A DNA stretch of 64,000 bases from Ideonella sp. A 288. Lineage in GTDB: Bacteria > Pseudomonadota > Gammaproteobacteria > Burkholderiales > Burkholderiaceae_C. Location of the stretch: the NCBI RefSeq assembly GCF_002198735.1, contig NZ_MWLO01000155.1:101288-165287 (forward strand), given 5' to 3'. This document shows, piece after piece, positions 39,851 through 41,638 of this stretch. The notes below the pieces were generated by a model. That model was not told where the DNA came from, did not search any database, and saw only the letters and a program-made list of their open reading frames with translations. The position numbers were made by a program, and so were the translations under genes. The stretch's first letter is position 1, and every line of letters begins with the position of its first letter.

Positions 39851-41638
39851 ATGACCGACCTGTCCCCGTTGCACCGCGTGGCCCAGCCGCACCCCGTGAA
39901 GGCGCCCACCGGCACCACGCTGCACTGCCGCAACTGGCTGATCGAGGCGGCGTACCGCATGCTGCAGAACAACCTCGACCCGGCCGTGGCCGAAAACCCC
40001 GATGCGCTGGTGGTCTATGGCGGCATCGGCAAGGCCGCCCGCAACTGGGACTGCTACGAGCAGATCCTGCAGTCGCTGTGCGAGCTGAAGGAAGACGAGA
40101 CCCTGCTCATCCAGTCGGGCAAGCCGGTGGGCGTGTTCCGCACCCACGCCGACGCGCCGCGCGTGCTGCTGGCCAACTCGAACCTGGTGCCCAAGTGGGC
40201 CACCTGGGAGCACTTCGACGAGCTCGACCGCAAGGGCCTGATGATGTACGGCCAGATGACCGCCGGCAGCTGGATCTACATCGGCAGCCAGGGCATCGTG
40301 CAGGGCACCTACGAAACCTTCGTCGAGGCGGGGCGGCAGCACTATGGCGGTCGCTCGCGCCCGAGCGCCGGGCCGCCCCAAGCCGGGCGCGATCCCCTCG
40401 GGGGATCGGACGACGTACTCGTCGACCGAGGGGCCCACTGGATTGGCAAATGGATCCTCACCGCCGGCCTGGGCGGCATGGGCGGCGCCCAGCCGCTGGC
40501 GGCCACCTTCGCCGGCGCCTGCTCGCTCAACATCGAGTGCCAGCAGTCGCGCATCGACTTCCGGCTGCGTTCGCGCTACCTCGACGAGCAGGCCACTGAC
40601 CTTGACGACGCGCTGGCCCGGCTGGCGCGCTACACCGAGGCCGGCCGGGCGGTGTCGATCGGCCTGTTGGGCAATGCGGCCGAGGTGTTGCCCGAGCTGG
40701 TGCGACGAGCCCGCGTCGGCGGCCTGCGGCCTGACCTGGTGACCGACCAGACCTCGGCGCACGACCTGGTCAACGGCTACCTGCCACCGGGCTGGAGTGT
40801 GGAGCGCTGGAAGCTGGCCGCCGCCGACAGCGGCCAGCACGCCGAACTGCGCGCCGCCGCGGCCCAGGGCTGCGCCATCCACGTGCAGGCCATGCTCGAT
40901 TTCCAGGCCATGGGCGTGCCCACCGTGGACTACGGCAACAACATCCGCCAGGTGGCCTTCGACACCGGCGTGAAGAACGCCTTCGCCTTCCCGGGCTTCG
41001 TGCCGGCCTACATCCGGCCGCTGTTCTGCCGCGGCAAGGGGCCGTTCCGCTGGGTGGCGCTGAGCGGCGACCCGGAGGACATCCGCAAGACCGACGCCAA
41101 GATGAAGGAGCTGTTCCCCGAGGACGCGCACCTGCACCGCTGGCTGGACATGGCCGGCGAGCGCATCGCCTTCCAGGGCCTGCCCGCGCGCATCTGCTGG
41201 ATCGGCCTGGGCGAGCGCCACCGCGCCGGCCTGGCCTTCAACGAGATGGTGAAGTCGGGCGAGCTGAAGGCGCCCATCGTGATCGGCCGCGACCACCTGG
41301 ACAGCGGCTCGGTGGCCTCGCCCAACCGCGAGACCGAGGCCATGAAGGACGGCAGCGATGCCGTCAGCGACTGGCCGCTGCTCAACGCGCTGCTCAACAC
41401 CGCGGGCGGTGCCACCTGGGTCAGCCTGCACCACGGCGGCGGCGTCGGCATGGGCTACTCGCAGCACAGCGGCGTGGTGATCGTCTGCGACGGTACCGAC
41501 GCTGCGGCGAAGCGCATCGAACGCGTGCTCTGGAACGACCCCGGCACCGGCGTGATGCGCCATGCCGACGCCGGCTACGACGAAGCCATCGCCTGCGCCC
41601 AGGCGCAGGGGCTGAACCTGCCGATGGTGAAAGCATGA
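39851..41638 (+). CDS. hutU: Urocanate hydratase with in-frame repeat insertion
   Basis: A 595-residue NAD-dependent enzyme that turns urocanate into imidazolonepropionate, the second pathway step. Family landmarks include [27 protein letters not shown], the NAD loop [26 protein letters not shown] and [14 protein letters not shown]. Normal urocanases have about 3 residues between QHYGG and [11 protein letters not shown]; here there are 31 (residues 168-198), encoded by DNA resembling the repeat at 44300. The frame stays open, so a longer protein of about 28 extra residues is made. The insertion sits just before the NAD loop and may affect activity. ATG 39851 matches the family start. Confidence 0.93.
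40352..40444 (+). repeat. Repeat-derived insertion inside hutU
   Basis: This 93-bp segment encodes the extra residues in hutU. Bases 40361-40386 are identical over 26 bp to 44300-44325, and both copies continue into a cccctcgggg-type hairpin and a tcgtcg-type arm. It replaces the short normal linker without a stop codon or frameshift. Confidence 0.8.

Follow-up and report, generated by a model that had tools for sequence, protein, structure and literature searches.

The urocanate hydratase gene (hutU) of Ideonella sp. A 288 carries, in frame, a copy of a repeat of about 85 bp that has many further copies in the genome, and the same site of hutU is occupied by this repeat in five species, in one orientation or the other. 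We give a probability of roughly 85% to the reading that an interspersed, non-autonomous repeat defined by its hairpins entered hutU in frame, that it is translated there as a tolerated loop of an enzyme that stays active, and that it became fixed. According to the proposed mechanism, the hutU insert would be a copy of a MITE/REP-like repeat of ~85 bp that is common between co-directional genes of the family. It would have entered in frame into a HutU loop that links a helix to the first strand of the NAD-binding fold, and would be translated as a flexible loop rich in Gly, Pro, Arg, and Asp. HutU would keep its activity, which would allow the insertion to be fixed. The hutU site and the zinc-domain loop of recQ would each have been occupied several times, and a preference for a target sequence may contribute.

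The hutU insert and the copies in the window

The window, the whole stretch of 64,000 nucleotides that was analysed, contains hutU at 39851..41638 on the + strand. The open reading frame (ORF) begins at TTG 39755, and ATG 39851 has been taken as the start, which gives a protein of 595 residues that matches TIGR01228 in two stretches (934 bits, E 2e-281) and is the single HutU match in the genome. The insert lies at 40352..40444 (+) and consists of 31 open, in-frame codons where relatives have 3, as the initial annotation had stated (31 against about three). In the alignment with relatives this corresponds to a net gain of 28 residues between QHYGG and GKW, and solved urocanases align with the window HutU to residue 168 and resume at 198 or 199. 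In an alignment of 26 homologues the insert leaves every invariant column intact, a weak proof since the window row is itself among the 26. The lack of a second HutU match in the genome and the end branches of the five hutU carriers on a HutU tree, which are not long (0.13–0.22, compared with a median of 0.15), are in line with an enzyme that stays active.

An AlphaFold2 model of the window HutU is only fair, with a mean pLDDT of 71.8 and several conserved stretches also below 50. The insert has a low pLDDT of about 27–30 over residues 171–190 and is flanked by a helix (145–165) and a strand (201–205), and the modelled fold matches 1uwk and other urocanases. The model suggests that the insert is disordered and exposed, and tolerance would be the simplest reading for HutU. 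Among the fates that had been offered for the insert, toleration in a loop appears favoured, while splicing out and damage to the enzyme appear less likely.

A covariance model of the repeat, R1, was built from 14 training copies that include the five hutU inserts and is hence biased towards hutU inserts. In the window, R1 identifies the hutU copy at 40353..40438 (+; 81.8 bits, in the training set), which is sense to hutU and has three hairpins. A diverged, reversed copy at 41637..41716 (−; 28.5 bits, E 9e-4) fills the spacer between the hutU stop and the hutH ATG, and a third copy lies at 44292..44377 (+; 69.2 bits, in the training set). The hutH gene of the window (41714..43252, +; PRK09367, 710.6 bits, one stretch 2–497 on model 5–499) is without an insert. 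The third copy is preceded by an ORF with an NMT1/THI5-like domain, the stop of which ends at 44286, and is followed by an ABC permease ORF that starts at GTG 44372 or ATG 44378. The 26 identical bases that had been noted between the insert and the element at 44300–44370 are correct: they are the longest identity between the insert and 44280–44380, starting at 40361 and 44300. When up to 3 mismatches are tolerated, a 24-base part of them still has exactly two occurrences in the window, with 0 expected (100 shuffles). A further R1 match at 57349–57424 (E 0.016) was rejected, as its ORF reads as an ordinary MBL-fold protein (a reading of the sequence, without a family search). Some spacer copies abut the start codon of the next gene, including the one at 41637–41716 in the window and those at loci L226 and L230.

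Abundance and placement of the repeat

The possibility that the element occurs nowhere else in the genome can be set aside, because R1 gives 53 matches in Ideonella sp. A 288 at E up to 1, at least one of them false; this count comes from scoring 150 of 12,900 first-look candidates and is therefore neither complete nor free of false matches. Eight other genomes of about 4–8 Mb have 6–124 matches each (E up to 0.01), and the genome with only 6 is that of Ideonella oryzae. In a search of 60 genomes of the order with a stricter filter, six match at E up to 1e-4. They include both members of the home family, with 23 and 54 matches, and four genomes from other families, with 4, 1, 1, and 1. A high frequency of the repeat is largely confined to one family. 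At G114 C1:2692252-2692662 and G445 C16:81508-81743, copies follow one another head to tail at a period of roughly 78–81 bp. Plasmid and phage collections contained no similar DNA at the thresholds used. An intact RAYT was not found in Ideonella sp. A 288, where the Y1_Tnp match covers 28 of 121 positions in an ORF of 50 residues.

From the home genome 50 of the 53 matches were fetched and 49 were kept; L188, a coding stretch without the core, was rejected as a repeat. The 137 copies examined comprise these 49, 74 copies from genomes G098, G415, G416, G108, G199, and G227, and 14 further loci. The surroundings of the copies were classified roughly, from the codon scores of 300-base flanks, which left 34 of the 137 with unresolved flanks. 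Both flanks could be resolved for 87 non-coding copies; the flanks are co-directional for 83 of these, convergent for 4, and divergent for 0. The co-directional copies show a moderate orientation bias (52 antisense, 31 sense).

Architecture and conserved pairing

The repeat measures ~85 bp (about 80–90) and has up to three hairpins. Hairpin 1 has the conserved loop GGGCCGCCCCAAG or a variant of it, hairpin 2 has a sequence close to CCCCCTCGGGGGG, and hairpin 3 is variable and present in many copies; a run of G closes the repeat. As regards the terminal inverted repeats and the target-site duplication of a MITE, the hairpins of the repeat are internal and no duplication is obvious by eye at the hutU junctions. 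GTAG on either strand is found within the first 10 nt of 0 and the last 10 nt of 3 of the 137 copies, and CGTC within those of 5 and 7, respectively, with the ends approximated by the ends of the R1 matches.

Hairpin 1 is paired over at least 6 bp in 89 of 113 distinct copies, which use 62 different 5′ arms, compared with a mean of 25.1 and a maximum of 34 when the arms are swapped among copies (200 shuffles). Hairpin 3 is paired over at least 5 bp in 53 of 108 copies, compared with a mean of 25.6 and a maximum of 33 with shuffled letters. Both shuffle counts ignore the shared ancestry of the copies and are not probabilities. The repeat conserves pairing above sequence, and this is clear for hairpin 1. 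The RNAalifold consensus of 14 copies contains 14 pairs and covers hairpins 1 and 3 little. Rfam gave no match on any element (39000–46000, E up to 5), and its five matches elsewhere are all below the gathering scores. Folded alone as RNA, the hutU copy, 44286–44378, and the hutU–hutH spacer have z scores of −1.69, +0.37, and −3.13, and folded alone as single-stranded DNA they have −2.67, −1.71, and −1.74. These stand-alone folds are unusual only in part, and the pairing kept across copies is the better structural evidence.

The kept pairing of hairpin 1 and the co-directional placement of the non-coding copies, with none of them divergent, are the observations that would be expected if the repeat were retained by selection on its structure. 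The repeat would then act in cis as DNA or RNA, through message stability, ribosome pausing, or protein binding, and the coding copies would do likewise inside their gene. We consider this possible but unlikely. Hairpin-templated correction without selection could yield the same kept pairing, or the pairing may serve mobility only, and the shuffle count, in view of the common descent of the copies, does not amount to a probability. In addition, the orientation bias between co-directional flanks is only moderate, and hutU, and probably recQ, have the repeat in both orientations.

The repeat has a GC content of 0.76–0.79 and is open in most frames because it is GC-rich: on average 4.33 of the 6 frames are open in non-coding copies and 4.26 in shuffled letters, which attributes the openness to composition.

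The same site in hutU of other species

Of the other HutU loci, the 80 best among 596 were compared, and 78 have the short form of the protein. The remaining two, in Ideonella oryzae (L016) and Rhodoferax ferrireducens OTU1 (L022), have a reversed repeat at the same site. Among 20 other genomes of the genus, 17 have a HutU match; in 16 of them the matching pieces abut the site with no insert, and the match in G410 is too partial. At these 78 loci and in these 16 congeners the residues are therefore absent, and not replaced by unrelated residues of the same length.

A frame-blind pattern matches 21 of 399 family genomes. Three of these matches are in hutU, namely in Ideonella sp. A 288, in G098, where the repeat has the orientation seen in the window, and in G108, where it is reversed; the other 18 are unrelated, as judged from the matched letters. 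The same flanks with a short gap were found in 111 of the 399 genomes; judged by reading, about 106 of these have the hutU form of 42 bases. Both pattern counts are minimum values, because some hutU genes, those of several congeners among them, do not fit the exact pattern.

Two of the five hutU carriers have sense repeats and three have antisense repeats. In the two sense carriers QHYGG stands before the start of the insert, and in the three reversed carriers QHY does; the sites agree within about two codons. All five inserts are stop-free and in frame, and three of the five carriers were found by the frame-blind pattern. The proposal of the initial annotation that an intergenic repeat had turned coding in hutU without breaking the frame is supported, and neither of the two observations that it named as refuting was made. 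That hutU is far from the only gene affected, and that its site has been hit again in other species, lay beyond its reach.

In-frame copies in other proteins

A copy was called in frame when an ORF runs through it and the codon scores to its left and right resemble those of coding sequence. This applies to 18 of the 137 copies, of which L292 and L300, short ORFs with no family match, were removed; the 16 that were kept are the 5 HutU cases and 11 others. Five of the 11 pass the curated NCBIfam cut-off: RecQ, BchZ, and MetY (O-acetylhomoserine aminocarboxypropyltransferase) in the home genome, and HutH (G098) and NudC (G199) in relatives. Six cases are below the cut-off, and for some of them the ORF is cut by the stretch that was fetched. 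They are a CcoG/NapH-like protein in the home genome and, each with a Pfam match, an RND permease (G098), a DegT-type aminotransferase (Ideonella), an AceE/AKGDH-like protein (R. ferrireducens), an alpha/beta hydrolase (G108), and an AndAc-like dioxygenase (G199). The extra residues relative to the profile are plain in RecQ_Zn_bind (99 residues on 64 positions), MetY (458 on 432), and HutH (531 on 499). The DegT-type aminotransferase has few extra residues (371 on 356, Pfam), and its case rests on the reading of the sequence. In-frame copies of the repeat are not confined to urocanase.

IcmF of the congener G410 also has an in-frame copy (641 residues on 608 positions, with the ORF cut by the stretch). 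Among seven peptide-only matches in congeners, one (the first in L228) lies inside IcmF. The other six (L226, L227, the second in L228, L229, L230, and L231) resemble, by codon score, copies just upstream of a coding sequence.

HutH of G098, which has its own in-frame copy, is encoded at L241 (G098:C1:1027223-1029303, reverse strand 425–2080) and matches over 9–539 on model 3–501. The copy lies about 1 kb beyond the end of the hutU match and 2.2 kb from the hutU insert; two neighbouring enzymes of one pathway both bear the repeat in this genome. The bchZ gene, at L183 (G000:C12), encodes a chlorophyllide reductase subunit that holds an in-frame copy, and its presence suggests that Ideonella sp. 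A 288 synthesises bacteriochlorophyll.

The RecQ loop as a second recurrent site

With the home RecQ as query, 115 matches were obtained among 120 family genomes, and 20 RecQ loci were fetched because of full-length or odd alignments, which makes them a biased sample. In 8 of these 20 genomes (G098, G067, G021, G044, G035, G070, G055, and G047) the repeat lies between YFGE and CGNCD in the home orientation; for G047 this was established from a reading of the protein. RecQ of G098 (L307) has three tandem in-frame copies in the zinc-domain loop. In G079 both strands show core-like matches, and by eye the copy reads as a reversed repeat. The RecQ loops of G078 (L309) and G056 (L310) look by eye like degenerate copies that have lost the conserved loop letters, and in L309 the arms are, also by eye, still complementary. 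The other nine fetched loci are without the core; four have loops of 4 residues, and five have loops of 12, 22, 32, 33, and 98 residues. The congener G011 has a short loop. On a RecQ tree of 21 rows with 4 starred branches, the 10 labelled rows, G079 included, require 7 changes, at least 4 of which are forced by the starred branches; shuffled labels require 7.3 on average. Besides the hutU site, the repeat has a second recurrent site in the RecQ loop.

Causes of the recurrence

We propose that the hutU and recQ loops have been occupied recurrently because they tolerate changes of length. The occupation of one hutU site in five species and of one recQ loop in several genera could instead reflect target choice, in which the enzyme of a mobile element recognises a motif or a DNA structure at these sites. 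We regard this as an improbable cause of the recurrence. No target motif was noticed by eye, and between the two orientations the hutU junctions are offset by about two codons. Furthermore, the length of the recQ loop varies even in the nine genomes without the core, which argues for tolerance. Tolerance would be the main cause, to which a preference for certain targets may add.

It is also doubtful that hutU received a single old insertion that was followed by many losses or spread by gene transfer. This explanation draws on the mutual likeness of the hutU inserts. An insert is about as similar to those of other species as to the copies sampled from its own genome, or more so, the mutual ranks are 1–3 for several species pairs, and the Ideonella and G108 inserts, which have the same orientation, show 91% identity. 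Some carriers may owe their occupied hutU to gene transfer, most of all Ideonella oryzae with its 6 matches. The two orientations, on the other hand, speak against a single insertion. On a HutU tree of 73 rows (columns less than 50% filled left out; SH-aLRT support from a quick search), 5 changes are required to explain the five carriers, and starred branches force at least 4 of these. The site is also empty in G199, a congener of G098, and in Roseateles, which adjoins Ideonella on the tree. Entry into hutU on separate occasions would be the more probable course, though perhaps not for every carrier.

A more speculative extension, to which we give little weight, is that a structure-defined mobile repeat of the Burkholderiales re-enters matched loops of core enzymes (HutU, RecQ, and perhaps HutH) in either orientation, prefers these sites or is retained there, and adds a selected feature. 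This feature would be a flexible protein module or a message hairpin, and the triple copies and the remnants in RecQ would be stages of domestication.

It is very improbable that the hutU insert remains untranslated, spliced out of the message or bypassed by the ribosome. The compact hairpin array is the sole point in favour of this, while the element has no Rfam match and the insert is in frame and free of stops in every carrier, which bypassing would not require. An assembly artefact can be dismissed, because, although repeats are prone to misassembly, five assemblies have the insert at the same site with differing flanking letters.

The preferred reading, in-frame entry of the repeat into a loop that tolerates it, has a wider consequence. 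Judged from the sequences, the occupied genes suggest that hairpin repeats of this kind may repeatedly become parts of working proteins. Orthologous enzymes whose sites are empty, sense, antisense, triple, or degenerate-looking are natural replicates, with which ordinary enzymology can address the old question of whether such inserts are merely tolerated or useful.

Comparison with known palindromic repeats

Rickettsia is the best-known source of protein-coding palindromic repeats. A literature search, with subscription journals mostly outside its scope, led to no publication recognised as describing the ~85-bp repeat, and a search with the letters of the repeat core gave a single match, unrelated judging by its title.

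In the available part of the account of the Rickettsia repeats (RPEs), these are described as short palindromic repeats of about 150 bp that are found in frame in unrelated metabolic genes and outside genes (PMC10969869). The present repeat is likewise in frame in unrelated protein genes. It differs from the RPEs, which were compared by description only, in its length of ~85 bp, its three hairpins, its GC content, and its larger host genomes of about 4–8 Mb, and also in that several species have it at one hutU site, in one orientation or the other.

The REPs of the GTAG and CGTC types, as far as the consulted text goes, are 20–40 bp long with a tagged end and are mostly found outside genes, often between unidirectional genes, with some intragenic copies; the GTAG REPs are associated with a RAYT transposase, while the CGTC REPs have no dedicated transposase (PMC3733652). 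The same text describes a REP at about the same site in recB of two Xanthomonas species (PMC3733652). The initial annotation had called the element REP-like, and this holds only loosely. It does not hold for the length, which is about 80–90 bp with up to three hairpins compared with the 20–40 bp of a single palindrome, nor for the GTAG and CGTC tags, which are rare at the ends of the repeat, nor for the RAYT, of which no intact copy was found in Ideonella sp. A 288.

Two further systems share single features with the repeat. The intrastrand triplex motif of E. coli, in the portion of the report available, is about 35 nt long with its third strand close by (PMC4666352). The repeat resembles it as a G/C-rich hairpin followed by a further G tract, but its next G tract is 16–32 nt away (108 copies parsed). 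The enterobacterial RU, according to the accessible text, are small mobile sequences of 103–168 bp within genes that carry open reading frames (PMC2759123); their hosts and sizes, as given there, differ from those of the ~85-bp repeat.

Size, architecture, host range, and the missing tag and RAYT distinguish the repeat from RPEs and REPs. As far as can be seen from the parts of these sources consulted, its recurrence in both orientations at one hutU site is more striking than the RPE and REP precedents. A different, structure-defined repeat acts like the RPEs in the larger genomes of Burkholderiales, and does so at the same sites in several lineages.
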